Positions 1-15,290 of a DNA stretch of 64,000 bases are shown here, piece by piece. The notes under the pieces were generated by a model. The model searched no databases. It had not been told where the DNA came from and saw only the letters and a list, made by a program, of their open reading frames with translations. The stretch's first letter is position 1. The number at the start of each line of letters is the position of its first letter. Source of the DNA: Herbiconiux sp. SALV-R1 (GTDB lineage Bacteria > Actinomycetota > Actinomycetes > Actinomycetales > Microbacteriaceae); contig NZ_CP053344.1 of assembly GCF_013113715.1 (NCBI RefSeq), positions 3,596,001 through 3,660,000 on the forward strand, written 5' to 3'. A program made the translations under genes and the position numbers.

Positions 1-2504
1 ACGCTCGTCGCCCGCAGCGCGCCGCCGGTGGCCTCGAGCCCGCTGAGCCCGCCGAGATCGGTCCAGCCCTCGAGGTCGCCGTCGGTGCCGAAGTCCCACT
101 CGGTCGTGAAGTCGCCGACCTCGGGAGGCGGGGTGCCGAGCGCCGGCGAGAGCGCCCGGTCGTAGGGGTAGAGCTTCTGCAGGCGCTTCTGCTGGGCAGC
201 GGTGGGCCGCGTGCTCGCCACCGTCGACGAGGTGAAGGTGTCGCGGATGGCTTCGAGGAAGCCGAATCCGCTGTAGTCGCTCGGCTGGATGAAGTGCCCC
301 TCGCCCCACTCGTTCCAGTTCGCCAGCATCGTGAGCCGACGGCCGAGGTGCCCGGCGGGGAGCGAGGGGATGTAGTCGTCGCGCGCCCACTCGGCGATCT
401 GCTGGAACTCGCCGGGTGGCATGATGCGGCCCTGCGTGCGGATCCACGGCAGGTCGTCGCGCCCGACCGCCAGCGTGGAGAGCACCTGCAGCGGGCTCGT
501 CGCGTGGCGCGCGGTCATGAGCGCCTCCTGCAGGGCGGGGTAGCCGTCGTAGGAGTAGGCGTACTCCCCCGCGATGCCGAGCTGCGCGGCCTCGGGCGCG
601 ACGCCGATCGTGAGGTAGACGACATCCGGGAACCCGAGGGCCTGGATCGCCGTGCGCAGGTAGTCGAGCTCGGCCTTCGCCGCGGTCGCCGAGCCGAAGT
701 TGCTGATGAGTGTGCGTGAGTTGTAGATGCAGAACACGGGCTTGCCGTCGATGCAGAAGTACCGGGGGTCGCGGAAGTAATACTCGATGAGGTAGGGCAC
801 GATGTTCTGGCGGAAGTCGGTGGAGTTGGTCTGTCCACTCGCGACGTTCTCCCACATGATGGCGAACTTGAGCGCGTCGCCGTACTCCGACGGGAAGTAG
901 CCGTCGTGGAGCGCGTGGTGCAGGTCGGGCAGTTTGATCGGTTGCCCGACTCCGGCCAGGGGCCTGAACCAGCACTGCATCCGGAACGCGACGCCGGCCT
1001 CGGCCATCCAGGTGTTCTCCCAGTCGGCGACCTCGGGGATGCCGTCGTCGTACCAGCCGAGGTAGGGCTTGCGTTCGGGGAACCGGGTGATGAGGTCCCA
1101 GCCGAGGTGGTGACCGGTGCGCCAGCCGCCGAACTCCGACATGCCGATGGCGTGGTCGCCGGCCGGCGCGACGGCCTGCGGTGCGGGCGCGTAGTCGAGC
1201 GGCAGCGGCCCCTCCCAGTACGCCTTAACGTCGTCGAGCAGGATGCGCGTTCCGGCCGGCAGGTCGAAGCTCGCCGATGCGGGGGTGTTGCTCGCGCTCG
1301 CCGCGCCGCCGAACACCGAGGTGCCGCTCAGGATGCTCGCACCGTTCACCGCGACGTCGAGCAACGACCCGGTGACGTCGATGCGTACAGTGAGGTGGTT
1401 CCAGAAGTCGCGCCGGTAGCCGTAGCTCACCAGCACGTCGTTGTCGTGGTCGATGACGTCGATGGTCGTGGCGCCAAAGCGCAGCAGCATCCGCTTGCCG
1501 TCGGCGAGCGTCACGCGGTAGAGCACGGTGCCCGCGGTCTCGATCTTGATGCGGAACTCCGTCACGCAGTGCGGGTCGGTGGCCGTGAAGCCCGCGAGGG
1601 CCGCCGGGAACGCCAGCCCGCCGCCGGAGGAGCCGCCGACCGCCTGCAGGCAGAACCTGTCGACCCAGGTGGAGTGCATCCGTTCGACCACCGTCAGGGC
1701 GGTTCCGCTCGCTGCCGCCGTCCAGGCCGTCGGCACGGTGCCCGGCATCACGTCGAGGAACTGCTCGTTGATGACCGTGTCGCGGTACAGCCGCACCGGC
1801 CCGAAGAAGAAGTCCGACCGCGCGCCCTCCGAGCTGGCCACGAGCAGGTTGTCGGCTCCTCCGTCGGCGAGCAGAACCACCCCGGTCGCCTTCTGCACGC
1901 CGTTGACGAAGACACTCGCCACGGAGCCGTCGAGGTCGACGACAGCCCGCACGGCCATCTCAGTGTCTGCGACCACGGAGCTGAGCGCGACGTCGGGCCC
2001 GCTCGCCTGCCGGAGCCCGAGGGTGGAACCGGTCACCCGCAGCTCGAGCACCGTCGTCGTGCCGTCGCGGAGCAGGAACGAGACGCCGTCGAGGGAGGCG
2101 CTGTTCGGCTCGAAGCGGAACTCCAGGCGCAGCACCCCGGCGCTCTGCGGCTGGAACGGGCGCATGAGCAGCACCGGCAGCTGCGCGCTCGAGTCGGCGA
2201 CACGGAACCACCGCCCGTACTGCTGGGTGATGACCGCACCCGCCTGATCGGTGTCCCACGCGTCGGGAAGCGGGTAGCGGGTCTTCTCCATGAAGAAGAA
2301 GTCCTCCTCGATGAGGTACCGGGCCGAGGTGCCTCGAGGGAGCGTGCCGGCCGGGAGCACCAGGTCGAGCGGCGCGATCGCCGCGCCGCCGAGGGCTGTC
2401 GCCGAGGCGGGCGCCGCGTAGCCCACTCCGCCGATGACGGTCAGCGAGGCAGCCACCTGGAGGAAGGATCGTCGGGTGAGGCCGGTGTTCTCGGAATTCA
2501 TCAT
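1..2504 (-). CDS. Tat-exported GH99-like/WbsX-type glycan-active protein (C-terminus cut by window edge)
   Basis: About 834 residues are visible without a stop; the C-terminus lies outside the window. The start is ATG-ATG behind an AGGAG ribosome site. Residues 10-16 read TRRSFLQ, a twin-arginine signal, followed by a hydrophobic stretch, so export is expected. Residues ~50-420 look like laminin-G/concanavalin-type beta-sandwich repeats. Residues ~430-760 resemble the GH99-like WbsX domain, including WNEWGEGHF near residue 730; this motif is typical of that family. Another beta-sandwich appears to begin near 790. Family members act on mannose-type or other glycans, but the substrate here is not readable. 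The gene is downstream of the sugar transporter genes yet has its own promoter with the locus operator 29 bp before the start. Confidence 0.8.
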   Translation of the reverse strand, partial: MMNSENTGLTRRSFLQVAASLTVIGGVGYAAPASATALGGAAIAPLDLVLPAGTLPRGTSARYLIEEDFFFMEKTRYPLPDAWDTDQAGAVITQQYGRWFRVADSSAQLPVLLMRPFQPQSAGVLRLEFRFEPNSASLDGVSFLLRDGTTTVLELRVTGSTLGLRQASGPDVALSSVVADTEMAVRAVVDLDGSVASVFVNGVQKATGVVLLADGGADNLLVASSEGARSDFFFGPVRLYRDTVINEQFLDVMPGTVPTAWTAAASGTALTVVERMHSTWVDRFCLQAVGGSSGGGLAFPAALAGFTATDPHCVTEFRIKIETAGTVLYRVTLADGKRMLLRFGATTIDVIDHDNDVLVSYGYRRDFWNHLTVRIDVTGSLLDVAVNGASILSGTSVFGGAASASNTPASASFDLPAGTRILLDDVKAYWEGPLPLDYAPAPQAVAPAGDHAIGMSEFGGWRTGHHLGWDLITRFPERKPYLGWYDDGIPEVADWENTWMAEAGVAFRMQCWFRPLAGVGQPIKLPDLHHALHDGYFPSEYGDALKFAIMWENVASGQTNSTDFRQNIVPYLIEYYFRDPRYFCIDGKPVFCIYNSRTLISNFGSATAAKAELDYLRTAIQALGFPDVVYLTIGVAPEAAQLGIAGEYAYSYDGYPALQEALMTARHATSPLQVLSTLAVGRDDLPWIRTQGRIMPPGEFQQIAEWARDDYIPSLPAGHLGRRLTMLANWNEWGEGHFIQPSDYSGFGFLEAIRDTFTSSTVASTRPTAAQQKRLQKLYPYDRALSPALGTPPPEVGDFTTEWDFGTDGDLEGWTDLGGLSGLEATGGALRATS

Positions 2505-2532: not shown

Positions 2533-2561
2533 ATATTCACATGTTAAGTGCTCGGGCACAA
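2533..2561 (-). promoter_or_regulatory. Promoter with locus operator, upstream of the GH99-like gene
   Basis: On the minus strand a -35 TTGTGC (2556-2561) and a -10 GAATAT (2533-2538) are separated by exactly 17 bp. The spacer and -10 contain TTAACATGTGAA (2536-2547), the same near-palindrome found at 5208, 6392 and 12508. A repressor bound here would cover the RNA polymerase site. Binding by the GntR/LacI-type protein encoded at 5235-6356 is inference. Confidence 0.7.
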
Positions 2562-2581
2562 GAGCATGCGTGTGGACGGCC

Positions 2582-2596
2582 CCGCGCAGAGCGCGG
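2582..2596. terminator. Short GC hairpin after the isomerase gene
   Basis: CCGCGC-AGA-GCGCGG forms a six-pair stem with a three-base loop just past the minus-strand stop at 2613. There is no U tract, so a terminator role is only plausible. Confidence 0.3.
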
Positions 2597-2612
2597 CGCG
2601 GGTCGTGGACGC

Positions 2613-3359
2613 TCAGCGCCCGTCGTGCTGCTCGAGGAAGGCGCGGCCCGCGTCGACGGGCTCCCAGACATCGCCGTCGAAGAAGTCGAGCTCGAGCACC
2701 CGTCGCGGCCCGGGTGCTGCGCGGAGCGCCTCCACCACGGGAACCGACCCGGTGCCGAGCGCCGATTGGCCAGAACCGTCCTTGCCGAGCGACCCGTCTT
2801 TCACGTGCAGCGCGACCACGCGGTCGCCGAGCCGCTGCAGCAGGGCCACCGGGTCGACCCCGCCGACCAGCGCCCAGTAGATGTCGAGCTCGAGACCGAC
2901 GTCGGGAGCGAGGTGTGCGGCGAAGTACTCGAGCGCCACCTCGCCCTCGACGCGATACTCCGTCTCCCACCAGTGGTTGTGATAGGCCAGCGACAGCCCG
3001 CGGGCCGCCGCCTCGTCTACGAGCGTGTTGAGAGCATCCGCTGTTCGGCGCACCTCGTCGGCGGTGGCCCACCGCGAGGCATCGACGAGCGGCTCGACGA
3101 CCGTGGCGGGGCCGAACCCGGCGGCCGCATCGAGCACGCGCAGCGGGTCGACACCCTCCGTGAGCAGCCTCCCGTGCAGGGTCGGCGTCGAGAGCCCCGC
3201 CGCGGCGAGCGCCGGGCGCAACTCCCCGGCGCGTTCGGGGAAGCGGAACGGCTCGACCTCGGTGAAGCCGCGCGCGGCGAGCGCGTCGAGTGTGCCGGGG
3301 AGGTCGGCCTCGAGGTGCTCGCGGAGCGTGTAGAGCTGGATGGACGGGGCGCGGCTCAC
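2613..3359 (-). CDS. Sugar phosphate isomerase/epimerase family protein (xylose isomerase-like TIM barrel)
   Basis: The 248-residue product starts SRAPSIQLYTLREHLEADLP after a GTG that overlaps the upstream permease stop (GTGA), so translation is probably coupled. The N-terminal IQLYTLRE strand, central YHNHWWE (residues ~130) and ELDIYWAL segment are characteristic of the AP-endonuclease-2-like sugar isomerase/epimerase family, which binds a divalent metal with Glu, Asp and His side chains. Length is normal for the family. It is the third gene of the permease operon and probably isomerises or epimerises the imported sugar. A longer reading frame extends upstream into the permease gene but lacks family similarity there. 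Confidence 0.8.
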   Translation of the reverse strand: MSRAPSIQLYTLREHLEADLPGTLDALAARGFTEVEPFRFPERAGELRPALAAAGLSTPTLHGRLLTEGVDPLRVLDAAAGFGPATVVEPLVDASRWATADEVRRTADALNTLVDEAAARGLSLAYHNHWWETEYRVEGEVALEYFAAHLAPDVGLELDIYWALVGGVDPVALLQRLGDRVVALHVKDGSLGKDGSGQSALGTGSVPVVEALRAAPGPRRVLELDFFDGDVWEPVDAGRAFLEQHDGR

Positions 3360-4222
3360 TTCGACGTCCCGGCGATGCCGCCCTGGATGCCCGCGAGGAA
3401 CCACTTCGACAAGAAGGTGAACAGCAGCAGCAACGGGATGCTCGAGATGGCGTAGCCCGCGAACAGCGGGCCCCACTGCGTCGCGTTCTGCCCCTGGAAG
3501 AACGACAGCCCGACGGGGATGGTGCGCAGCGAGTTCTCGGTGATGGTGAGCAACGGCCAGAAGAACTCGTTCCACACCGAGATCACCGTCATCAGCGCCA
3601 CTGTGCCGATGATGGGGTACGACAGGGGCAGCATGATCGAGAAGAACAGTCGGGGACCGGAGGCGCCGTCGATGCGAGCCGCGTCGAAGAGCTCCTGCGG
3701 CACCCCTTCGAAGAAGGTCTTCATGAGGATGATGGCGAGCACCAGGCCGCCGGCGATCTGCGGGATGATGAGCACCCAGTAGGTGTTGAGGATGCCCATG
3801 TCGCGCACCAGCACGAACAACGGGATGATGCTCGCCACGTTCGGGATCATCATGAGCACGAGCACGAAGACGAACAGCAGGTTGCGCCCCAGGAAGCGGT
3901 AGCGGGCGATGACGTAGGCGCTCGTCGCCGCCAATGCGATGGTGCCCACGGTCGAGGCCGCGGCGACGATGAGCGAGGTGACGAGGTAGGGGTTCACCTG
4001 GTTCCAGGCGACGGCGTAGTTGTCGAACTGCAGCGGGAAGCTGATGCCCCAGAAGTTGTCGTAGAACTGCTCGTTCGACTTGAACGAGGTGCCGAGCATG
4101 AAGAGGTACGGGAACAGCCCGACCCCGGCGATGACGCTCAGCACGATGATGACGGCGGCCTGCGTGGCCGTGCGACGGCGCCGGGTGCGGCTCCCGACCC
4201 GGGCGAGGGCTTCAGTCGACAT
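3356..4222 (-). CDS. Carbohydrate ABC transporter permease (MalG family)
   Basis: A 288-residue integral membrane protein with about six hydrophobic segments, the first at residues ~22-42. The conserved inner-loop EAA region reads ELFDAARIDGASGPRLFFSI near residues 190-210, the contact site for the ABC ATPase. The C-terminus FLAGIQGGIAGTSK is typical of MalG-type subunits. It overlaps the partner permease by 11 bp and the isomerase by 4 bp, so the three genes form one translational unit. No ATPase is encoded nearby; actinobacteria often use a shared MsiK-type ATPase, and that is assumed here. Confidence 0.9.
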   Translation of the reverse strand: MSTEALARVGSRTRRRRTATQAAVIIVLSVIAGVGLFPYLFMLGTSFKSNEQFYDNFWGISFPLQFDNYAVAWNQVNPYLVTSLIVAAASTVGTIALAATSAYVIARYRFLGRNLLFVFVLVLMMIPNVASIIPLFVLVRDMGILNTYWVLIIPQIAGGLVLAIILMKTFFEGVPQELFDAARIDGASGPRLFFSIMLPLSYPIIGTVALMTVISVWNEFFWPLLTITENSLRTIPVGLSFFQGQNATQWGPLFAGYAISSIPLLLLFTFLSKWFLAGIQGGIAGTSK

Positions 4223-5198
4223 CGACGTTTCCTTTCTTGCCCCGTCCGACCAGCAGCGACGCGAGGCTGAGCAGGAGGATTAACACGAACAGGGTGGTCG
4301 ACAGCGCAGCGGCGTAGCCCCACTCGCTGGCGCCGAACGCCATGTCGAGGGCACGGATGACCGGCACCATCGTGGCGTTGTCGGGCCCGCCCCCGGTGAG
4401 CAGGTAGGCGGAGAAGCCGAACTGCAGCACCTGCACGATGGCCAGGAAGAACAGCACCCTCACCTGCCCGAACAGCAGCGGGAGGTCGAGGTGCACGAAA
4501 CGCTGCCAGCGGTTGGCACCGTCGATCGCCGCGGCCTCGAACACTTCGCCGGGGATGTTCTGGAGGCCCGTGAGGAAGATGAGGAACGGCAGCGACGCGA
4601 CCCAGGGGAACTGCACGAAGATGAGCGCGAGCAGCGCCGTCTGCGGGTTGCCGAGCCAGTTGCCGCGGAGGGCCTCGAGCCCCAGCGATGACAGCAGCTC
4701 GTTCAGCACGCCGGAGTTCGGGTCGTAGATGAAGCCCCAGAGCAGCACGGTGACGACACCCGGGAAGGCGAGCGGGACGATGAGCAGGGTGCGGAACAGG
4801 AATTGCAGGCGCGTGCTGCGCAGCGAGATGACGAGCTCGGCCGCGATGAGCGGGAAGATCCACATCAGGGTCACGGAGGCCAGGAAGATGGCCCCGAGGT
4901 TGGCGAACGACTGCAGCCACACCGGGTCGGTGAGCATGCGCTGGTAGTTCTCCAGGCCGATGAAGGTGGAGTCGAAGGCCGGCCGCCAGTCGAAGAACGA
5001 GTAGAACATGCCCGACAGGCCCGGGTAGTACCCGAAGACGGCGAGCAGCGCGATGGTGGGCGCGAGCACCAGATAGGCCCACCAGGCCACCCGGCGCCTC
5101 GGGCGGCGGCGCGGCGCCGGAGACGCGGGCGCTTTCGCCTCCCCGGCTGGTGCGGGCTCCGCGTCGCTCGTCTCGGTTCTCATCATCGTCGATGCCAT
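4212..5198 (-). CDS. Carbohydrate ABC transporter permease (MalF family)
   Basis: A 328-residue membrane subunit with a charged N-terminus followed by six hydrophobic segments. The EAA loop reads EVFEAAAIDGANRWQRFVHL near residues 220-240. It pairs with the MalG-type subunit encoded immediately after it. The start is ATG at 5198: the predicted -10 box ends six bases earlier, so the transcript probably begins at the A of this ATG (leaderless). An internal ATG-ATG four codons later is an alternative start. The divergent side carries the regulator gene, and the binding lipoprotein lies beyond it on the other strand. Confidence 0.88.
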   Translation of the reverse strand: MASTMMRTETSDAEPAPAGEAKAPASPAPRRRPRRRVAWWAYLVLAPTIALLAVFGYYPGLSGMFYSFFDWRPAFDSTFIGLENYQRMLTDPVWLQSFANLGAIFLASVTLMWIFPLIAAELVISLRSTRLQFLFRTLLIVPLAFPGVVTVLLWGFIYDPNSGVLNELLSSLGLEALRGNWLGNPQTALLALIFVQFPWVASLPFLIFLTGLQNIPGEVFEAAAIDGANRWQRFVHLDLPLLFGQVRVLFFLAIVQVLQFGFSAYLLTGGGPDNATMVPVIRALDMAFGASEWGYAAALSTTLFVLILLLSLASLLVGRGKKGNVDVD

Positions 5199-5204
5199 GG
5201 CCTC

Positions 5205-5233
5205 ATATTCACATGTTAATGTGCGGAGATCAA
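5205..5233 (-). promoter_or_regulatory. Promoter with locus operator, upstream of the permease operon
   Basis: Minus-strand -35 TTGATC (5228-5233), 17-bp spacer, -10 GAATAT (5205-5210). The operator TTAACATGTGAA (5208-5219) fills the -10 end of the spacer. The -10 lies six bases before the permease ATG, implying a leaderless mRNA. The box lies between the 3' end of the regulator gene and the permease start. Confidence 0.7.
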
Positions 5234-5234
5234 C

Positions 5235-6356
5235 TCACCCCTGGCCCGACCGCACCAGGCGCAGCCGCAACGACGAGCTCTCGCGCTCCTGGAACTCCGC
5301 ACTCAGGATGGTGTGCGACGACGGGGGAAGGCGCCCCTCGAGCGCCGCGTCGCAGGCGATGCGCGCCGCCGTGTCGCCCAGCAGCCCCTGCGGCAGGATG
5401 GCCGTCACGGCCGTGAGCGCCGGGATCGACGAGGCCGTCCCCACCTTGCGGTCGGTGCCCGCGAAGTCGATGTCTTCGGGGATGCGCAGCCCGAGCTCGA
5501 GGGCGTCGCTCATCGCCTGCTCGAGCACGAAGCCGTTGGCGCAGATGAACGCGGGCGGGGTGCTGCCGGCGGCGACCGCGGCGGTGAGGATCTCCTGACG
5601 CACGTCGGTGGACTGGCTCAGGTAGTCGAGCATGGCCATGCGGTCGAGGTCGATCTCGAGCTCGTGCTCCTTGAGCGCGCGGATGTGACCAGCCTGGCGA
5701 TCACGCACGCTGGTGCAGTCGGTCTCGACCCAGAGCGCGCCGATGCGCTCGAAGCCCCGGCCGATCATGCGCGAGGCCAGCTGATAGCCGATGTCGTGGT
5801 TGTCGATGACGACCGCGGCGCAGGGGAGCTCGTGCCAGTAGCGGTCGATGAACACCACGGGGATGCCGGCGCTCCGGAGGTTTTGCACCGACTCGACGTC
5901 ACCCGGCCCGTCGACGGGGTACAGGATGACCGCCGACGAGTTCGCCGCGCGCCGCAGCGCCTCGCGCTGCTTGTCCCACGACCCGTCGGTGCTGACGATC
6001 GTCGTGGTGAAACCCCGGGCGGCCGCCGTGCGCTCGATGCCGCGGACCACATCCATCACGTCGCCGCTGGTGAGGGCGGGGATGATGCAGGTCACGGTCG
6101 CCGGCCGGGCGCCCTCGCTGAGCGCCGGGTCGATCGGGCGGTGCGCCGCGACGAAGGTGCCGCGGCCGCGCGAGCTCGTCAGCACCCCGGCCTGCTGCAG
6201 CTCACTGAGGGCGCGAGCGGCGGTGAGCATGCTCACGCCGTAGCGGTCGCACAGCTCGCGCTGGGTGGTGAACGGAAGCTCCGGATCGTAGTCGCCCTGC
6301 GCGATGCGCTTCAGCAGATCCTTCTTGATCTGCTGGTACATGGGGAGCTTGGCCAC
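5235..6356 (-). CDS. GntR-type winged helix / LacI-type sensor transcriptional regulator
   Basis: A 373-residue regulator. Residues 1-72 form a GntR winged-helix domain (MYQQIKKDLLKRI, then TTQRELCDRYGVS and GRGTFV). The rest is a periplasmic-binding-protein-like sugar sensor of the LacI/GalR type (IIPALTSGD, VVFIDRYW, FAGTDR). This domain mix is like the AraR/GntR sugar repressors. The GTG start at 6356 was chosen because it sits at the GntR boundary and follows AAGGTGGCGGC; longer readings would run through the operator. The gene sits inside the transporter locus, with operator copies on both sides and 36 bp from its start, so autoregulation and local control are likely. The ligand is unknown. 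Confidence 0.88.
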   Translation of the reverse strand: MAKLPMYQQIKKDLLKRIAQGDYDPELPFTTQRELCDRYGVSMLTAARALSELQQAGVLTSSRGRGTFVAAHRPIDPALSEGARPATVTCIIPALTSGDVMDVVRGIERTAAARGFTTTIVSTDGSWDKQREALRRAANSSAVILYPVDGPGDVESVQNLRSAGIPVVFIDRYWHELPCAAVVIDNHDIGYQLASRMIGRGFERIGALWVETDCTSVRDRQAGHIRALKEHELEIDLDRMAMLDYLSQSTDVRQEILTAAVAAGSTPPAFICANGFVLEQAMSDALELGLRIPEDIDFAGTDRKVGTASSIPALTAVTAILPQGLLGDTAARIACDAALEGRLPPSSHTILSAEFQERESSSLRLRLVRSGQG

Positions 6357-6377
6357 GCCGCCACCTTCACCTTCGTC

Positions 6378-6406
6378 TTGACGGATTGAGTTTAACATGT
6401 GAATAC
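6378..6406 (+). promoter_or_regulatory. Promoter with locus operator, upstream of the binding lipoprotein; also faces the regulator gene
   Basis: Plus-strand -35 TTGACG (6378-6383), 17-bp spacer and -10 GAATAC (6401-6406). The operator TTAACATGTGAA occupies 6392-6403. The same box lies 36 bp before the divergent regulator start, so one bound repressor could control both directions. Confidence 0.72.
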
Positions 6407-6451
6407 TGTGTTCGACCACTGAGACGTCCTGCAGTCTCATTCACAGATTGG

Positions 6452-7909
6452 ATGGCAATGAAGCCTCGCACAGTCCGCCGTGTGGCGGCAGCCGCCACAG
6501 CGGCGATCCTGGGTGTCACCCTAGCCGCCTGCACGGGCAGCTCCGACTCCTCGGCCGACAAGGTCACGATCACCGTCGCCGGCCCCAACCAGTGGAACTC
6601 CGACCCCTCCTCGTTCGGGCCCGAATGGGAGGCCCAGGTCGCCCGCTTCGAGGAGCTCGAGCCCGACATCGACGTCGAGACCACGGTGCTCCCGCTCTCG
6701 TCGTTCAGCGACACGCTGGCCACCCAGCTGTCGGCGGGAACCGCCCCCGAGCTGGTCTTCAACCAGGCGCCCCACCAGCCCTACATGGTGCACTCGCTGA
6801 ACGACTACCTGGCGGCACCGAACCCCTACGTCGAGGGCAACGAGGCCTGGATCGACGTGTTCAACCCCGACCTGTTCGGCCCGAACAACCCCGTCACGTA
6901 CAACACCGAGGGCAACAACGAGTTCATCCCGTTCAACGTCTTCATCCCGGTGATCTACTACAACGCCGAGATCTTCGAGGAGGTGGGCGTCGAGGCGCCG
7001 ATCGAGACCTGGGCCGACCTGGTCTCGGCCTCCGAGAAGCTGAAGGCCGCCGGCTACACGCCGTTCGCCGCCGACAACGCTCCGCAGGGCCTCATGTGGA
7101 CACTCGAGGTGATCGCCGACCAGCTCGTGACCCATGCCGTCTACGACACCCTCAACGTCTTCGACGCCAAGGGCGAGCCCGGCACGAACAACGCCCTGAC
7201 CTCGAAGGACTGGGCCCGCGGCGTGCTCACCGGCGAGGTGAAGGCGACCGAGATCCCCCAACTGCGGGAGTCGCTCGAACTGCTCAAGCAGTTCTACACC
7301 GACTTCGCCACGCCGAACTGGTCGGGCGTCACCGGCACCGGCGCCGCGGTCATCAACCAGGCCGACTTCGTCAGCGGCAAGGCGGCGATGGCGTGGGGTT
7401 CGTCGTTCGGCTACTCCACGGTGCAGAGCGAGGCCGACTTCACCGTCTCGGCGATGCCCTTCCCGACCATCACGAGCGAGACGACCGAGTACGCCGACGG
7501 CATCAACGCCCGCTACGGCGCCTCGATCTACGGCACGGCCTACGTCATTCCGGCGAACATCGAGGGACCGAAGCTCGACGCCGCGGTGAAGTTCCTGCAG
7601 TACATGACCGCTCCCGACAAGGCCTCGGAGTGGCTCGCCGACACCGGCAGCCTCTCGGCGCTGAACGACGCCGCGGTGCCCGAGAACCTGCAGGCGTTCA
7701 CCGGCAGCGACTGGCTCCAGCCCCGTCAGCTCGGCGGCGCCGCCATCTACCCGCCGGAGGGCACCGACGGTCAAGACCTCTACGGGGGCTACCTGCTCGG
7801 CACGAAGGACACCGATCAGATGCTCGCCGACCTGCAGGCCTCGTGGGAGCAGGTCGCGGCCCAGAACGTGAAGAAGGGCGGCTGGACCGAGGACTGGGCG
7901 CAGGGCTGA
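6452..7909 (+). CDS. Extracellular solute-binding lipoprotein of a carbohydrate ABC transporter
   Basis: About 485 residues. The N-terminus MAMKPRTVRRVAAAATAAI with lipobox LAAC is a lipoprotein signal; the mature protein begins at the Cys of CTGSSDSS. The remainder matches the MalE/UgpB-type sugar-binding family (QVARFEELEPDIDVET, LSAGTAPELVFN, GKAAMAWGSS, and the C-terminal LADLQASWEQVAAQ). Two ATGs six bases apart (6452 and 6458) can start it; a good ribosome site is lacking for both. It supplies the substrate to the permease pair on the opposite strand. It begins a cotranscribed run with GH13 and GH113 enzymes, which suggests oligosaccharide uptake and intracellular cleavage. Confidence 0.92.
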   Translation: MAMKPRTVRRVAAAATAAILGVTLAACTGSSDSSADKVTITVAGPNQWNSDPSSFGPEWEAQVARFEELEPDIDVETTVLPLSSFSDTLATQLSAGTAPELVFNQAPHQPYMVHSLNDYLAAPNPYVEGNEAWIDVFNPDLFGPNNPVTYNTEGNNEFIPFNVFIPVIYYNAEIFEEVGVEAPIETWADLVSASEKLKAAGYTPFAADNAPQGLMWTLEVIADQLVTHAVYDTLNVFDAKGEPGTNNALTSKDWARGVLTGEVKATEIPQLRESLELLKQFYTDFATPNWSGVTGTGAAVINQADFVSGKAAMAWGSSFGYSTVQSEADFTVSAMPFPTITSETTEYADGINARYGASIYGTAYVIPANIEGPKLDAAVKFLQYMTAPDKASEWLADTGSLSALNDAAVPENLQAFTGSDWLQPRQLGGAAIYPPEGTDGQDLYGGYLLGTKDTDQMLADLQASWEQVAAQNVKKGGWTEDWAQG

Positions 7910-7916
7910 TGCTCCC

Positions 7917-7948
7917 CGGGTGGGTCGACGGCCGCGTCGGCCCACCCG
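7917..7948. terminator. 14-bp hairpin after the binding-protein gene
   Basis: A near-perfect 14-bp stem (7917-7930 with 7935-7948, one G-U pair) with a GCCG tetraloop lies eight bases after the stop codon and before the GH13 gene. Such hairpins commonly stabilise the 3' end of the binding-protein mRNA or attenuate downstream transcription. No U run follows. Confidence 0.55.
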
Positions 7949-7984
7949 CCAGCTCACGGCACCGCACACTCTGAAAGCAGGAAC

Positions 7985-9688
7985 ATGACCATCTCGGCCC
8001 CGACGACCGCCCGCACCGACGATCGCCTCGAGGAGTCCGCCTGGTGGCGCACCGCGGTCATCTACCAGGTCTACCCGCGCTCCTTCGCCGATTCGAACGG
8101 CGACGGCATCGGCGACCTGGCCGGCATCACGAGGCGACTCGAGCACCTCGCCGACCTCGGCGTCGACGCCGTGTGGCTGTCCCCCTTCTTCACCTCGCCG
8201 CAGAACGACGGCGGCTACGACGTGGCCGACTACTGCGACGTCGACCCGCTGTTCGGCACCCTCGACGATTTCGACGAGATGCTCGCCGAGGCGCACCGGC
8301 ACGGTCTCCGCGTCATCATCGACATCGTCCCGAACCACAGCTCCGACCAGCATCCGTGGTTCCAGCGGGCACTCGCCTCGCCGCCCGGGTCGGCAGCTCG
8401 CGACCGCTACCTGTTCCGCGCGGGCCGGGGCCCCGACGGGTCCCTCCCGCCGAGCAACTGGCAGTCGACCTTCGGCGGCCCGGCCTGGAGCAGGCTGCCC
8501 GACGGCGACTGGTACCTGCACATCTTCGACTCGACCCAGCCCGACCTCAACTGGCGGAACCCCGCCGTGCGCGCCGACTTCGTCGACATCCTGCGGTTCT
8601 GGCTCGACCGGGGGGTCGACGGCTTCCGCGTCGACGTGGCGCACGGCATGATCAAGGCCGAGGACTTCCCCGACTACCACCCGCAGGAGCTCCTCCCCCT
8701 GGTCGGCGTCGACCCGACGGTGGGCCTGACCAAGGAGGGCCCGAACCCGCCGTACATGCTGCAGGAGGGGCTGCACGAGATCTGGCGGGAGTGGCGCGCC
8801 GTGCTCGACGAGTACGACGGCGACCGCGTGCTCTGCGCCGAAGCGTGGGTGGAGCCGCTGCAGCGCCTCGCCGACTGGGTGCGTCCCGACGAGATGCACC
8901 AGGCCTTCAACTTCTCGTACCTCGAGACGCCGTGGGAGGCACCCGCACTCCGCACGGTGATCGACGACTCCATCACGTCGTTCGAGTCGGTCGGTGCGCC
9001 GAGCACCTGGGTGCTGTCGAACCACGACGTCATCCGCCATGCCAGCCGGCTCGGACTCGTCACCCCGGTGCCGCAGGGCGAGGGCCTCGGGCCGCGCACA
9101 GCTCCCCTGGTCGACCCGGAGCTCGGCGCCCGCCGGGCCCGTGCCGCCTCGCTCCTCATGCTCGCCCTCCCCGGCAGCGCCTACCTCTACCAAGGCGAGG
9201 AGCTCGGGTTGCCCGAAGCGGTCGACCTCCCCGACGAGGCGCGGCGTGATCCCTCCTGGTTCCGCACCGCGGGTGAGAAGTACGGACGAGACGGATGCCG
9301 CGTGCCCATCCCCTGGGAGGCCGAAGCGCCGGCCTTCGGCTTCAGCCCGAGCGGGGCGAGCTGGCTTCCGCAGCCCGTCGCCTGGGCACCCCTGGCCCGA
9401 GACCGTCAGCGCGGTCGTGCCGGCAGCACGCTCGAGCTGTATCGCGCCGCTCTGGCGCTGCGGCGGCGGCACCGGCTGGCGCAGGGCTCGATCCGGTGGC
9501 TCTCGGCACCCGGCGACGAGCTGCTGATGCTGCGCAACAATGGGGTGAGGGTCGTGGCGAACCTCGGTGGCGAGGCCGTCGCCCTGCCGCCACAGCGCGT
9601 GCTCGCGACATCCGCCGCACCCGGCGACGCCTCGGCGGGAGCGGTCATCCCGCCCGACACCACGGTCTGGCTCGAGGAGGACGCATGA
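7985..9688 (+). CDS. GH13 alpha-glucosidase / oligo-1,6-glucosidase-like enzyme
   Basis: A 567-residue cytoplasmic glycoside hydrolase without a signal peptide. The four GH13 regions are visible: DIVPNHSS (~113-120), GFRVDVAHG (nucleophile Asp217), CAEAWVE (acid/base Glu286) and VLSNHDVIRH (Asp348). The opening WWRTAVIYQVYPRSF and length match the oligo-1,6-glucosidase/alpha-glucosidase branch. It follows the binding lipoprotein and overlaps the GH113 gene by ATGA, so the three are likely cotranscribed. It would release glucose or a related hexose from imported alpha-linked oligosaccharides; exact linkage specificity is not readable. Confidence 0.9.
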   Translation: MTISAPTTARTDDRLEESAWWRTAVIYQVYPRSFADSNGDGIGDLAGITRRLEHLADLGVDAVWLSPFFTSPQNDGGYDVADYCDVDPLFGTLDDFDEMLAEAHRHGLRVIIDIVPNHSSDQHPWFQRALASPPGSAARDRYLFRAGRGPDGSLPPSNWQSTFGGPAWSRLPDGDWYLHIFDSTQPDLNWRNPAVRADFVDILRFWLDRGVDGFRVDVAHGMIKAEDFPDYHPQELLPLVGVDPTVGLTKEGPNPPYMLQEGLHEIWREWRAVLDEYDGDRVLCAEAWVEPLQRLADWVRPDEMHQAFNFSYLETPWEAPALRTVIDDSITSFESVGAPSTWVLSNHDVIRHASRLGLVTPVPQGEGLGPRTAPLVDPELGARRARAASLLMLALPGSAYLYQGEELGLPEAVDLPDEARRDPSWFRTAGEKYGRDGCRVPIPWEAEAPAFGFSPSGASWLPQPVAWAPLARDRQRGRAGSTLELYRAALALRRRHRLAQGSIRWLSAPGDELLMLRNNGVRVVANLGGEAVALPPQRVLATSAAPGDASAGAVIPPDTTVWLEEDA

Positions 9689-10692
9689 CGATCACGGTTC
9701 CGTTCCAGCGCGGCATGAGCTACGGCTACCGCGCATTGAGGGGCGACTACGCACCGGAGAAGGTCGCGCGCGACGCCGCCGAGATGGCGAGCTGGGGCAT
9801 CGACAGCGTCGCCCTCCACGTGCATGTGGCCCAGGAGACCTTCGCCTCCACCCGGGTGTTCGCCGACTTCACGGTGACGCCGTCGGACGAGGAGATCACC
9901 GGCGCCATCGAGGAGTTCCGCCGCAACGGCATCCGGGTGATGCTGAAGCCGATGATCGAGAGCCAGGACTCGGCCTGGCAGGGCTCCATCCGCTTTCCCG
10001 AAGACGGCAACGAGCAGATCGCGGGGGTGCGCACGGGGTACTGGCAGCGGTGGTTCGACAGCTTCACGAGCTGCCTCGCGCACTACGCGACCCTGGCCCA
10101 GCGCGCCGGCGCCGAGGTGTTCTGCGTGGGCTGCGAGCTGGTGGGCACGATGGATCAGTCGGAGCTGTGGACGCGGGCCATCGGGGCGGTGCGCGAACGC
10201 TTCGACGGCGTGATCACCTACAACACCGACCACTCGGCCCTCGACGCGCCCCGCGACTGGTTCATCCACCTCGACGCGCTGTCGATCAGCTACTACGTAT
10301 CGGTCGCCACCCGGCCGGGAGCGACCGTCGACGAGATGACGGCGCACCTCGCCCCGCACGCCGACGAGCTCGAGCGGCAGGCCGAACGGCTCGGGATGCC
10401 CGTCTTCTTCGGCGAGATCGGCGCACGGTCGCGGGCGGGCACGGCGACGCTGCCGTGGGACTACCAGACGCCCGCGCCCTACAGCGGCAGCGAGCAGGCC
10501 GACTACCTCACCGCGATCCTGCAGACCTTCTGGTCGCGACCGTGGTGGCGCGGCCTGTACTGGTGGAAGTGGGAGGAGCGGCAGCGTCGACCCCAGTACC
10601 TCGACGACCCGGCCGGCGACAAGGGCTTCACCCTCGCGGGGAAACCCGGCCAGCAGGTGATGACCACCTGGTACTCCCGCACCGACCGTTGA
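9685..10692 (+). CDS. GH113-like glycoside hydrolase
   Basis: A 335-residue TIM-barrel enzyme starting MTITVPFQRGMSYGY at an ATG that overlaps the GH13 stop; GAGGAGG precedes it. The GH113 signature is present: GCELVG with a likely acid/base Glu151 and FFGEIGARS with a likely nucleophile Glu244. The C-terminus WRGLYWWKWEE is also typical. Characterised GH113 members are beta-mannanases or beta-mannosidases, but related proteins have other specificities. There is no signal peptide, so action inside the cell on imported oligosaccharides is inferred. A reading frame in the same phase extends upstream through the GH13 gene but has no start near the family boundary. Confidence 0.82.
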   Translation: MTITVPFQRGMSYGYRALRGDYAPEKVARDAAEMASWGIDSVALHVHVAQETFASTRVFADFTVTPSDEEITGAIEEFRRNGIRVMLKPMIESQDSAWQGSIRFPEDGNEQIAGVRTGYWQRWFDSFTSCLAHYATLAQRAGAEVFCVGCELVGTMDQSELWTRAIGAVRERFDGVITYNTDHSALDAPRDWFIHLDALSISYYVSVATRPGATVDEMTAHLAPHADELERQAERLGMPVFFGEIGARSRAGTATLPWDYQTPAPYSGSEQADYLTAILQTFWSRPWWRGLYWWKWEERQRRPQYLDDPAGDKGFTLAGKPGQQVMTTWYSRTDR

Positions 10693-10694
10693 CG

Positions 10695-10722
10695 GTTGCA
10701 CAGGATGCAACTGCCGTAGGCT
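10695..10722 (+). promoter_or_regulatory. Promoter and palindrome before the IclR gene
   Basis: GTTGCA-CAGGA-TGCAAC (10695-10711) is a perfect inverted repeat. A -10 box TAGGCT (10717-10722) ends six bases before the GTG start. The palindrome covers the expected -35 region, as an autoregulatory IclR operator would. Confidence 0.6.
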
Positions 10723-10728
10723 GTGGGT

Positions 10729-11478
10729 GTGGAAGACGCACCGGCACCCTCGAGCCGCACCCTCACCCGCGGGCTCGCCGTGCTCGAGATCGTGGCGGCC
10801 TCCGAGGGCATCGGCGTCTCGGAGATCGCCTCCCGCGTCGACTTCGACAAGGGCACGGTCTCCCGGCTGCTCGCGACCCTGCGACGCCTGGGCTACGTGA
10901 ATCAGCGCGCAGACCGTCTGTTCGAGATCGGCAGCAAAGCCGCCTGGCTCGCGGGCAGCTACGACAGCCGGCTCGACCTCATCCGGCGTGCAGCGGCCCA
11001 GCATCTCGCCGAGCTGTGCGCGCGCACGCGCGAGACCGTGCACCTGGCCGTGCGGGAGGGCGTCTTCGTCGTCTACATCGCGCAGGAACAGCCCGATCGT
11101 GAGGTGCGGGTCGACTCCGCCATCGGGCGACGACTCCCGCTTCACCTCACGGCGATGGGCCGCGCCTTCCTCGCGGCGCTCGAGCCGGCCGAACGGGCCG
11201 CCCTGCTCGCGACACTGCGGGCCGAATCGCCGAGTCCGCTCGACGAGCGCGGCCTCGACGACGACGTCTCGGCGGCGGCCCGGCGCGGATGGGCGGCGAT
11301 CGACCGCGACGACGAGGTCACCCGGCTCGCCGCGGTGGTGACCCGCGGCGACGGCCCGGCCGTTGCCGCACTCGCACTGTCGGGACCGTCGTACCGGGTC
11401 GACCCGCACGTCGACGAGCTCGGGGACCTGGTCGTCGGGGCCGCCGAGCGGATCGGCGCAGCACTCGACGCTCCCTGA
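10729..11478 (+). CDS. IclR family transcriptional regulator
   Basis: A 249-residue protein with an N-terminal winged helix (LTRGLAVLEIVAASEGIGVSEIA, then DKGTVSRLLATL) and a C-terminal IclR ligand domain (ETVHLAVREG, GRRLPLHLTAMGRAFLA). GTG at 10729 is preferred because a TAGGCT -10 lies six bases upstream, the spacing of a leaderless transcript; GTG 10723 is in frame but directly abuts the -10. IclR proteins often control aromatic or sugar-acid catabolism. Palindromes with a related TTGCA half-site occur at 14009-14045 between the RraA-like and dehydratase genes, so it probably controls the sugar-acid genes. Confidence 0.9.
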   Translation: MEDAPAPSSRTLTRGLAVLEIVAASEGIGVSEIASRVDFDKGTVSRLLATLRRLGYVNQRADRLFEIGSKAAWLAGSYDSRLDLIRRAAAQHLAELCARTRETVHLAVREGVFVVYIAQEQPDREVRVDSAIGRRLPLHLTAMGRAFLAALEPAERAALLATLRAESPSPLDERGLDDDVSAAARRGWAAIDRDDEVTRLAAVVTRGDGPAVAALALSGPSYRVDPHVDELGDLVVGAAERIGAALDAP

Positions 11479-11500
11479 CTCCCCTCCCGGGAGAGGGCTC

Positions 11501-12478
11501 TCAGCCCACGAGGTCGGCGAGGAATCCGAGCTGCTCGCCCTGGTGGTGGGTGCTCCCGCCCTCGTGGGCGTTGAAGGGGTAGACCGCGATCTGCTTGGGC
11601 CCGGCGTAGGTGTTGTAGGAGGCGAAGACCGTCGAGGGCGGGCAGACGTCGTCCATCAGTCCCACCGACCACAGGGCCGGCACCGTGGCACGGGCGGCGA
11701 AGCCGAGCCCGTCGACGTGATCGAGGGTCTCCATCGCCACCCGCTCCGCCCCACGGTGCACGCTGAGGTAGCGCACGATCTCGCCGTACCCGGTCGCCGA
11801 TGCGGTGATGCGCACCGCACGGCGGATGTGCTGGAGGAACGGCACGTCGATCATCGCCCCGATCGGGGCGTACTGCAGGTCGGCCGTCAGCACGGATGCT
11901 GCCAGCGCGAGCGCACCGCCCTGGCTTGCGCCCGAGGCGACCACGCGCGCCGGGTCGACTCCCGGGAGGATGGCCGCCGCTTCGATCGCGCGCGCCGCAT
12001 CGGTGTAGAGGCGTCGGTAGTAGTACCCGTGAGGGGATTCGATCCCGCTGGTCACGAGGCCGGCTGCATGGGGGCCTGAGCCGGCGGGGTCGGGAGTCAC
12101 ACCGACCCGGTGCCCCGACCCCTGCCCGCGCGAGTCCATCACGAAGTGCGCGTACCCGGCGGAGGGGAACATGGTCCATTCGTGGGCATGACCGCGCCCA
12201 CCGCCATACCCCTGGAACGTCACGACGACCGGGAGACGCTCCGCCCCCCTTGGGCGGAGGTACCAGCCGCGGACAGGGTGGCCGCCGAAGCCCGGGAACG
12301 TCACGTCGCTGACCTCGAGGAGCGGCAGACCGGCGTCGACCTCGACGAGCCGCGGCCGCATCGGCACCCGCCGCGCCTCCCGGAGGGTCGACGCCCAGAA
12401 GTCGTCGAAGCCGGGAACCTCGGGAGGCTCGGGGCGATACTGTCGCAGCTCGTCGAGCGGGAGATCGGTGTGAGGCAT
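11501..12478 (-). CDS. Acetylxylan esterase / cephalosporin-C deacetylase family hydrolase
   Basis: A 325-residue alpha/beta hydrolase of the AXE1 type. Visible features are PEVPGFDDFWASTL at the N-terminus, the oxyanion region VVTFQGYGGG, DSRGQG, the nucleophile elbow GASQGG (Ser near residue 190) and the C-terminal HEGGSTHHQGE bearing the catalytic His. The family removes acetyl groups from oligosaccharides; no signal peptide is present. The promoter region 27-42 bp before the start holds the fourth copy of the locus operator, so it belongs to the same regulon as the glycosidases. This implies that the imported glycan is acetylated. Confidence 0.88.
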   Translation of the reverse strand: MPHTDLPLDELRQYRPEPPEVPGFDDFWASTLREARRVPMRPRLVEVDAGLPLLEVSDVTFPGFGGHPVRGWYLRPRGAERLPVVVTFQGYGGGRGHAHEWTMFPSAGYAHFVMDSRGQGSGHRVGVTPDPAGSGPHAAGLVTSGIESPHGYYYRRLYTDAARAIEAAAILPGVDPARVVASGASQGGALALAASVLTADLQYAPIGAMIDVPFLQHIRRAVRITASATGYGEIVRYLSVHRGAERVAMETLDHVDGLGFAARATVPALWSVGLMDDVCPPSTVFASYNTYAGPKQIAVYPFNAHEGGSTHHQGEQLGFLADLVG

Positions 12479-12504
12479 GGACGTCAGGCCCTTCGTCGGG
12501 TTAG

Positions 12505-12519
12505 ATAATCACATGTTAA
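12505..12519 (-). promoter_or_regulatory. Locus operator upstream of the acetyl esterase
   Basis: Minus-strand TTAACATGTGAT (12508-12519) with a -10-like GATTAT (12505-12510) in the same register as the other three sites. No good -35 is visible here. It lies 30 bp before the esterase ATG. Confidence 0.6.
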
Positions 12520-12557: not shown

Positions 12558-13268
12558 TCAGAGGGTGAGCCCTCCGTCGACGACGAGGTCTTGTCCGGTG
12601 ACGTAGCCGGAACGACGAGAGCACAGCAGCAGTGCGGCGGCGGCGCAATCGCCCGGCTCCCCCAAGCGGCCCGCAGGGATGGAATCGAGGAGGCTGCGGC
12701 GATAGTGGGCATCGGCGAGCGCCTCGCGGTTGCGATCGGTCTCGACGACCCCCGGCGAGAGGCTGTTCACCGTGACGCCCCGGCCGGCGACCTGCGACGC
12801 GAGATTGCGCACGATCGAGAATTGTGCGGCCTTGCTCGCGGCATAGCCGATCATGCGCGGATGCGGACGGGACTGCTGCACGCTGCCGATGGCCAGGATG
12901 CGCCCCCAGCCGCGGTCGATCATCCCGGGCAGGAGACTGCGCACGAGCCCGAAGGGCTCACTGACGTTGACGCGATACTGCAGCTCGAGTTCGGCGGGCG
13001 ACGTCGCCCGCCACTCGGCCGGCAGCTGCACGGATGCGCTGTGCACGAGGATGTCGACCGGGCCGGCGGCCAGTGCCCGGAGCCCGAGCGCCTCACCCGA
13101 GCCCGCCTGGGACAGGTCGGCGACGAGGTCGCCGTCGGCGAGGCCGTGGCGCAGAACGCGGCACCCCTCCGCCTCGAGGGCGTCGGCGATGGCGGCGCCG
13201 ATGCCCGCCGTGCCCCCGGCGACGAGGGCGGCGAGCCCTTCGAACTCACTCGCCCGTCGACGCGGCAT
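12558..13268 (-). CDS. SDR family oxidoreductase
   Basis: A 236-residue classical short-chain dehydrogenase. It has the cofactor motif GGTAGIG (~19-25), the catalytic Tyr-Lys motif YAASK (~150), a serine in the preceding GSVQQS strand, and the C-terminal SGYVTGQDLVVDGG. NAD(P)-linked oxidation or reduction of a sugar-derived hydroxyl is the expected chemistry. It is followed by the acetyl esterase and preceded by the RraA-like gene, 27 bp apart on the same strand. In known non-phosphorylative deoxysugar routes an SDR oxidises the 2-keto-3-deoxy acid; that role is inferred only from neighbours. Confidence 0.85.
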   Translation of the reverse strand: MPRRRASEFEGLAALVAGGTAGIGAAIADALEAEGCRVLRHGLADGDLVADLSQAGSGEALGLRALAAGPVDILVHSASVQLPAEWRATSPAELELQYRVNVSEPFGLVRSLLPGMIDRGWGRILAIGSVQQSRPHPRMIGYAASKAAQFSIVRNLASQVAGRGVTVNSLSPGVVETDRNREALADAHYRRSLLDSIPAGRLGEPGDCAAAALLLCSRRSGYVTGQDLVVDGGLTL

Positions 13269-13295
13269 CCGCTCTGCTCCCTTGCTGCCACGCCA

Positions 13296-13997
13296 TCAGA
13301 GGCGACCGTGCTTGCGGTACACCTGCACCGGGTCGGCCCCCGACTCGAACTCCCCGCGGGTCTCGTTCTCCTCCGTGATGAGCGCCTCGGTGCGCTCGAG
13401 CACCTCGACCACGACGTCACGCGGAACGATGACCACGCCGTCGATGTCGCCGAACACGAAGTCGCCCGGGGAGACGGTGACCGTCGCCGTGAGCGCTCCC
13501 CGCAGGGCGACCGTGGTCTGCCAGTCGTAGTAGCTCCAGCGCCGCAGCGCCTCGACCGGGGTGAGGTAGCGGCAGAAGATGGGGAAGTCGCGTTCGATCA
13601 GGAAGCGCGTGTCGCGCGACCCGCCGTCGACGACGGCGCCGATCACCCCGCACGAGGCACCCACCGTGGCGTTCATCTCGCCGTAGTGGGCCGCCTGCTC
13701 GTCGAAGCTGCAGTCGCGCACGTCGACGAGCGGCACGCCGGTCTCCTTCATGGCGGCGAAGAGCTCGATGCGACGCGCCCTCAGCTTCTCGTCTCCGGTG
13801 GGGTCGGGGATGCCCTTGATGGTGAAGGCGGGCCCGGCCAGCACCCAGGACGGGACGACCGGCTTCACGTCGACGGCGAGTGCCTGATGAGGGAAGCCCA
13901 GCCCTTCGAGCACGTCATAGACCGCGCCGGAGTAGAGCTGCCGATAGCGATCGATGAGCTCCTGCACGGGCAGGGCGTAGTCGTAGGGGTTGTTCAT
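13296..13997 (-). CDS. RraA family protein (aldolase/decarboxylase-like)
   Basis: A 233-residue member of the RraA/4-hydroxy-4-methyl-2-oxoglutarate aldolase family. Typical elements are YSGAVYDVLEGLG, AGPAFTIKG, CGVIGAVVDGGSRD (metal-binding Asp region near residue 120) and GDFVFGDIDGVVIVPRD. ATG 13997 is chosen because GAGGAGGATCC precedes it; a longer frame would run through a palindrome. Family members cleave or decarboxylate keto acids using a divalent metal, whereas the E. coli name-giver inhibits RNase E. Together with the divergent dehydratase this suggests a final retro-aldol step on a keto-deoxy sugar acid. Confidence 0.85.
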   Translation of the reverse strand: MNNPYDYALPVQELIDRYRQLYSGAVYDVLEGLGFPHQALAVDVKPVVPSWVLAGPAFTIKGIPDPTGDEKLRARRIELFAAMKETGVPLVDVRDCSFDEQAAHYGEMNATVGASCGVIGAVVDGGSRDTRFLIERDFPIFCRYLTPVEALRRWSYYDWQTTVALRGALTATVTVSPGDFVFGDIDGVVIVPRDVVVEVLERTEALITEENETRGEFESGADPVQVYRKHGRL

Positions 13998-14008
13998 GGA
14001 TCCTCCTC

Positions 14009-14045
14009 GTTGATGCATTCAACGCTACAACAGTTGCATCTGTTG
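14009..14045. promoter_or_regulatory. Two palindromes in the divergent RraA-like / dehydratase control region
   Basis: GTTGA-TGCAT-TCAAC (14009-14023) and CAACAG-TTGCAT-CTGTTG (14028-14045) sit between the two start codons. Both contain TTGCA/TGCAT cores related to the palindrome before the IclR gene. They are the likely operators for divergent control. Confidence 0.55.
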
Positions 14046-14089
14046 CGACAAGACTCCAGAATGGTGACGAATCAACGAAGGAGTCGCTC

Positions 14090-15280: not shown

Positions 15281-15290
15281 GGGGAGAGTC

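Follow-up and report, generated by a model that had tools for sequence, protein, structure and literature searches.

LacI-family sugar repressors block promoters, and LacI sites have a central CG. AraR of Bacillus subtilis, a member of the GntR family, joins a sensor of this type to a winged helix, and is described as acting at several palindromic operators located at sugar import and hydrolase promoters and at its own gene (PMC4218819). The same two-part architecture occurs in the regulator encoded at 5235-6356 of the DNA analysed here, a window of 64,000 nucleotides from Herbiconiux sp. SALV-R1 (G000:C1:3596001-3660000, G000 being the organism's own genome), where it lies among sugar permease and glycosidase genes. 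We observe that one palindrome is common to several promoters of this cluster and to the flank of the regulator gene, as expected of a local repressor regulon, and this palindrome, wTTNACRYGTNAAw, is very probably the operator through which the GntR/LacI-type regulator represses the cluster promoters.

The N-terminus of the regulator matches the GntR winged helix (PF00392, residues 7-69, E 2.7e-13) and its C-terminus the GalR/LacI-type sugar-binding domain (PF13377, residues 196-361, E 2.4e-14). Compared with the PDB, the whole protein comes closest to the AraR sensor domain (3tb6, E 7.9e-15), whereas the winged helix alone is best matched by YvoA (4u0y, E 7.3e-13), followed by AraR (4egy, E 2e-9). 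YvoA/NagR belongs to the HutC-type GntR repressors, which have a UTRA sensor. Here, the sensor is LacI-type, and the operator is not the GTMTAKAC reported for YvoA/NagR (PMC4494728). Compared to LacI-family repressors, the sensor domain is alike, but the DNA-binding domain is GntR instead, and the centre of the operator is RY flanked by AC and GT rather than CG. ManR of Thermotoga maritima, from the unrelated ROK family, is likewise described with a regulon of mannoside hydrolases and an ATP-binding cassette (ABC) transporter (PMC3750489). The regulator is AraR-like by architecture only, since both its operator and its recognition residues differ from those of AraR, and, unlike in the AraR setting, no arabinose catabolic domain was found among the Pfam results for 15 cluster genes.

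The exact string TTMACATGTKAA was found by pattern search at three places in the window. The first-pass annotation had given four copies, and all four places exist; the one at 12508-12519, at the acetyl esterase gene, reads ATCACATGTTAA, one mismatch from TTMACATGTKAA and outside the consensus stated for it. The copies and the associated promoters, whose geometry was read by eye and is a consensus match only, are the following (GH, glycoside hydrolase family).

2536-2547, minus strand, operator copy 1, reading TTAACATGTGAA on that strand, inside the promoter of the GH99-like gene
2533-2561, minus strand, promoter 1: -35 TTGTGC (2556-2561), 17-bp spacer, extended -10 TGT-GAATAT (hexamer 2533-2538)
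5208-5219, minus strand, operator copy 2, in the 36-bp gap between the regulator stop codon and the permease ATG
5205-5233, minus strand, promoter 2: -35 TTGATC (5228-5233), 17-bp spacer, TGT-GAATAT (5205-5210)
6392-6403, plus strand, operator copy 3, between the divergent regulator and binding-protein genes
6378-6406, plus strand, promoter 3: -35 TTGACG (6378-6383), 17-bp spacer, TGT-GAATAC (6401-6406)
12508-12519, minus strand, operator copy 4, reading TTAACATGTGAT on that strand, one mismatch; TGT-GATTAT, no -35 seen

When the window was shuffled, a mean of 0.36 matches was found at up to two mismatches, and four matches were reached in 0 of 100 shuffles. A genome-wide motif scan, proposed as a check by the first-pass annotation, covered 4.52 Mb in two contigs and returned TTMACATGTKAA exactly three times, all at this cluster (reversed control, 0). 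At up to two mismatches the genome contains 26 matches, against 10 for the reversed control, so that an isolated weak match outside the cluster is uninformative.

On the strand of the target gene, copies 1-3 share the layout TTGnnn, 14 bp, TGT and GAATA(T/C), with hexamers 17 bp apart, and the TGn of the extended -10 is supplied by the palindrome itself. The operator corresponds to the last nine bases of the spacer and the first three (GAA) of the -10 hexamer; its placement at the end of the spacer, as originally described, is thus accurate for 9 bp, while 3 bp overlap the hexamer. The esterase copy has GATTAT, with no TTG at 17 bp. At the permease gene, the hexamer GAATAT is followed by GAGGCC and then by ATG, whose A (5198) is the seventh base past the hexamer. 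TA-like boxes about 12 bp before the start codon are described as marking leaderless genes, which are common in Actinobacteria (PMC3160421). A leaderless permease transcript that would start at the ATG, as had been put forward, is plausible from this spacing, but the exact start is not conserved to the base, the ATG of G1018 being 2 nt further from the promoter. The regulator, which does lie among the copies, has its GTG start at 6356, separated from copy 3 by 35 bp.

Among the 15 genus relatives, the best match to the regulator has E 2.9e-17 and none is a close orthologue, so the motif test was made in other families. A draw of 149 genomes, including the own one, gave G102 as the only other genome with an orthologue (40% identity). 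Further searches covered draws of 396 (order), 396 (phylum), 13, 24, 39 and 394 (class) genomes, with cut-offs of E 1e-35 or 1e-30; the draws overlap and mostly include the own genome. In total, 12 further orthologues with 33-67% identity over aligned columns were found in 11 genomes, namely G102, G152, G278 and G372 (one genus, f14), G210, G224 and G266 (one genus, f16), and G506, G576, G1018 (two copies) and G1168. Orthologues are rare, occurring in 8/396 genomes of the order draw, 3/396 of the phylum draw and 4/394 of the class draw, the own genome included each time. Five loci from a peptide-pattern scan of the genome collection showed only 24-27% identity and were not used.

We examined the 180-bp flanks of 13 regulator genes (that of the window included) with the arm pattern TTNACNNGTNAA. 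Upstream, the pattern is exact in nine and has one mismatch in four; downstream, these counts are five and two, which gives 14/26 flanks with no arm mismatch and 6/26 with one. Control flanks of 28 LacI-like genes, taken at the estimated gene ends, contain no exact match and a single one-mismatch match in 56; when the flanks were set by the matched blocks, whose ends often fall inside genes, the outcome was the same (0/56 and 2/56). Shuffled orthologue flanks gave 2/5200 exact and 137/5200 one-mismatch matches. Over whole fetched loci, those of the 28 control genes, 109,266 bases together, contain no exact match, against 14 in the 13 orthologue loci. The motif near orthologues, on which the first-pass annotation had staked its proposal, was thus borne out: an exact or one-mismatch palindrome flanks orthologues outside the family, some of them outside the order, and exact arms are absent from the control flanks. 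From these comparisons, the cluster is a predicted local repressor regulon whose motif is conserved near orthologous genes in relatives, except in G576 and for the GH99 copy.

The 21 sites collected, without that of G576, give wTTNACRYGTNAAw, in which AC precedes GT and the third position is degenerate; the sites were chosen by their arms, which makes the invariance of the arms partly a matter of construction. The spelling TTRACRYGTYAA, from which the window operators differ at positions 3 and 10, occurs 2, 3, 2 and 2 times in the four f14 genomes, and eight of these nine sites are regulator flanks. Elsewhere, it occurs once in the own genome (not at the window), once in G224 (at the regulator) and once in G576 (not at the regulator), and was not found in G210, G266 or G506; its reversed control occurs 0-2 times per genome. 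The pattern TTMACATGTKAW is matched in 8 of 42 chosen genomes (G000, G1018, G135, G016, G001, G005, G009 and G014). All three matches in G1018 lie at its two regulators, and G1168 has its orthologue beside TTGACGCGTCAA but no match to TTMACATGTKAW.

The closest comparison is provided by G1018, where 13 of 15 window genes have matches within 40 kb (tblastn, E ≤ 1e-10). Identities are 84-86% for the permeases, 85% for the mandelate-racemase-like (MR/MLE) protein, 81% for GH113 and RraA, 74% for the binding protein and GH13, 69% for the SDR, 68 and 65% for the regulators, 64% for IclR, 63% for the window part of the GH99-like protein, 61% for Gfo/Idh and 58% for the TIM barrel; the esterase and the lactonase had no match in these 40 kb at the same threshold. 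The operator between the regulator and the binding protein is identical, including TTGACG-17-GAATAC, and that between the regulator and the permease is TTCACATATTAA, with one mismatch and TTG-17-GAATA kept. The second regulator is flanked by TTCACATGTTAA and TTAACATGTGAT, the latter being the same variant as window copy 4. Since the two operators around the regulator are kept in G1018 and the GH99 copy is not, the regulator-adjacent copies are probably old, and the GH99 copy would either have arisen in the window lineage or have disappeared from G1018. The esterase copy was not found in the G1018 cluster. An esterase 48-50% identical to that of the window is present near the regulator in all four f14 loci. 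We also observe that G1018:C8:69120-80417 holds two paralogous regulators (68 and 65% identical to that of the window), separated by about 9 kb within a single glycan cluster, with the same operator beside both.

In the distant orthologues, the palindrome occupies another position on the promoter, with the TTGACR arm placed as a -35 hexamer. Among 13 such readings, six have TAnnnT, at 17 bp in G210, G266 and G224 and at 18 bp in G102 and G372 (divergent promoters) and G506; the downstream promoters of the four f14 loci have CAGGAT at 17 bp, and the remaining three have weaker hexamers. In the window and G1018, the site lies over the -10 side, covering the end of the spacer and the first three -10 bases. 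By arithmetic from these layouts, the operator would have shifted by about 14 bp on the promoter between branches. A core promoter element is covered in either register, as expected of a repressor, and this speaks against a simple promoter element. The claim that the position of the site implies exclusion of RNA polymerase gains from this, as the sites overlap a promoter-like hexamer in both registers, consistent with promoter-occluding repression.

The operator also departs from what is described for related repressors. The AraR box is given as At(T/A)tGTaCGTAcaa(A/T)T, with R41 contacting G5 and E30 tied to T6 and interacting with R41 and R45 (PMC4218819), and the GntR family consensus is given as NyGTNxACNy, with exceptions (PMC4494728). 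The 21 sites, of the form TTNAC-NN-GTNAA, match neither the AraR box nor the GT-Nx-AC palindrome of the family. In all 13 orthologues, E30, R41 and R45 are absent, with Q/T, M/N/T/S and A/S/V/I, respectively, at the aligned places. Among five PDB alignments compared, the E30/R41/R45 set is intact in AraR and the three YvoA rows and missing entirely from Lin1836 (3neu), so the loss of these residues is not unique within the GntR family. When the sites are aligned on the dyad, and assuming the same register, the degenerate third position would face G5 of AraR and the invariant A would face T6. Under the same assumption, the missing residues would agree with the changed operator bases.

We therefore propose the following model, in which we infer binding, the sign of the regulation and the inducer from sequence. 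Without inducer, a dimer of the regulator on each copy would hide a core promoter element, here the end of the spacer and the extended -10. RNA polymerase would then be blocked at the permease operon, the operon of the binding protein, GH13 and GH113, the GH99-like gene and the acetyl esterase gene, and probably at the regulator's own gene. The regulator would be released when its LacI-type domain binds a sugar derived from the imported glycan, most likely a mannose-containing oligosaccharide. These are the targets originally listed, and an operator is present at each, but the GH99 copy is not found in G1018, and the esterase copy is mismatched and has no -35.

Several observations weigh against this model. 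GAATAT and GAATAC are poor matches to TAnnnT, and 7 of the 13 readings at -35 have hexamers weaker than TAnnnT. No site was found in the downstream flank of 6 of 13 orthologues (the three f16 genomes, G506, G576 and G1168), the upstream one-mismatch site of G576, TACACTCGTAAA, is chance-grade, and the gap before the GH99-like gene of G1018 contains no operator. In addition, the GC content upstream is 0.67 in control flanks and 0.59 in orthologue flanks, a difference that accounts for a small part of the contrast and for which the shuffles correct.

The palindrome might be bound instead by the neighbouring IclR-family regulator (10723-11478), with the GntR/LacI protein acting elsewhere. The IclR gene is indeed part of the cluster and has its 64% identical match in that of G1018; however, a tblastn search of the remaining ten orthologue loci, 4.6 to 20 kb in length, gave no match to it (E ≤ 1e-10), and in nine of these ten the GntR/LacI gene has a site with 0-1 arm mismatches in its upstream flank. 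We consider this reading very improbable. The GntR/LacI-type regulator is the very probable binder because its distant relatives carry a similar palindrome beside their genes. Similarly slight is the probability that the string is no operator but a promoter element read by an alternative sigma factor: the window match does extend past the palindrome into TA(T/C) downstream, like a -10 box, but the string is palindromic, occurs in two registers (the -10 side and, in distant orthologues, a possible -35) and tracks the regulator gene.

An operator that overlaps the -10 or -35 hexamer is in a position typical for repression. The sign of the regulation is read here from such overlaps; a role of the bound regulator in activating or merely fine-tuning transcription is unlikely, given the overlap of the sites with the -10 or -35 hexamer and an architecture matching that of AraR, described as a repressor (PMC4218819). 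That an AT-rich palindrome recurs here by chance or through base composition might be suspected from the 26 genome matches at two mismatches and from the unrelated conserved or repeated copies elsewhere. It is scarcely credible, given that exact sites occur at this cluster only and that similar sites lie beside orthologues only 33-38% identical to the regulator of the window, in addition to the close copies in G1018.

Those unrelated copies were set aside. In the own genome, TTCACATGTGAT (G000:C1:673537) and TTGACATGTCAA (676886), 3.3 kb apart, were considered as a second cluster of the regulon and rejected: TTCACATGTGAT is kept in 4 of 15 genus relatives although none has a close orthologue of the regulator, which indicates that it is probably the site of another regulator. 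It has the look of a conserved operator, similar in sequence but serving a different regulator. In G001 and the own genome, TTCACATGTGAT lies between divergent genes, and it also occurs in G005, G009 and G014; the genes around it are presumably dehydrogenase-like and four-carbon-acid-sugar-kinase-like. The perfect palindrome TTGACATGTCAA stands at the start of a gene frame that we take to be MarR-like. The four exact copies containing TTCACATGTTAA in G135 are one repeat with identical 132-bp surroundings, presumably 23S rRNA genes, unrelated to the regulon and liable to mislead genome-wide scans that use this pattern. The one isolated site in G016, a genome with no close orthologue (best E 1.5e-22, 29%), is also unrelated.

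The genes of the cluster, with functions assigned by Pfam, are the following.

1-2504, minus strand, GH99-like/WbsX-domain secreted protein (PF14307), running past the window edge, 1584 aa in total
2613-3359, minus strand, xylose-isomerase-like TIM barrel (AP_endonuc_2), end of the permease operon
3356-4222, minus strand, ABC sugar permease of the MalG/UgpE type
4212-5198, minus strand, ABC sugar permease of the MalF/UgpA type
5235-6356, minus strand, regulator with GntR winged helix and Peripla_BP_3/LacI-type sensor, 373 aa, GTG start
6452-7909, plus strand, ABC solute-binding protein (frame scanned from 6458), start region ATGGCAATGAAGCC conserved in G1018
7985-9688, plus strand, GH13 glycosidase
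9685-10692, plus strand, GH113 glycosidase
10723-11478, plus strand, IclR-family regulator, not a likely binder of this operator
11501-12478, minus strand, AXE1-family acetyl esterase

The GH99-like protein carries Cu_amine_oxidN1 (PF07833) at residues 953-1055, an odd partner for a glycosidase. A search for a GH113 homologue at E ≤ 1e-60 in 349 family genomes found one only in the own genome. A GH38 alpha-mannosidase adjoins the regulator or lies within about 4 kb of it in 6 of 12 non-window loci (G210, G266, G224, G576, G506 and G1168); for f14, the Pfam scan took in five genes of G102 and one of G278, with no GH38 among them, and it did not extend to G1018. Because of GH38 at the orthologue loci and of the GH99-like and GH113 enzymes encoded in the window, we tentatively suggest that the inducer comes from a mannose-containing glycan, a reading that we place a little short of even. 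With the GH13 enzyme and the esterase, other glycans are also conceivable.

To the right of the esterase lie SDR, RraA-like, mandelate-racemase-like, Gfo/Idh and lactonase genes (12558-17554; Pfam), in which no operator match at up to two mismatches was found by the window search. This set resembles a non-phosphorylative sugar acid route beside an import cluster, and may belong to the IclR regulator. The lactonase frame contains an Ala-Asp repeat, ADADAAADADADAAA (16358-16500), ahead of the lactonase domain, and its true start may be further in.

The system is, as predicted, an ordinary device, a local repressor regulon, with an operator and a recognition helix unusual for its architecture. 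No title in the open-access literature searched dealt with this operator or with a GntR/LacI regulator linked to a mannosidase, which, with one operator spelling (TTGACATGTCAA) searched, is weak evidence of novelty. It is an evenly balanced matter whether these proteins form a clade of AraR-architecture repressors that rewired its reading of DNA, in which E30, R41 and R45 are gone, G5 is degenerate, T6 is replaced by an invariant A and the operator lies about 14 bp apart between branches, control of glycan import being kept. The regulator-operator pair yields two predictions, one naming the residues at which the protein departs from AraR and the other the operator bases that change with them. 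The specificity question for the GntR family, namely how the winged helix, itself conserved, recognises its site when the usual Arg-G contact is missing, would thereby become testable with one protein and one 30-bp fragment, and the operator, being searchable in genomes, may help to find glycan-uptake loci of this type in high-GC bacteria.

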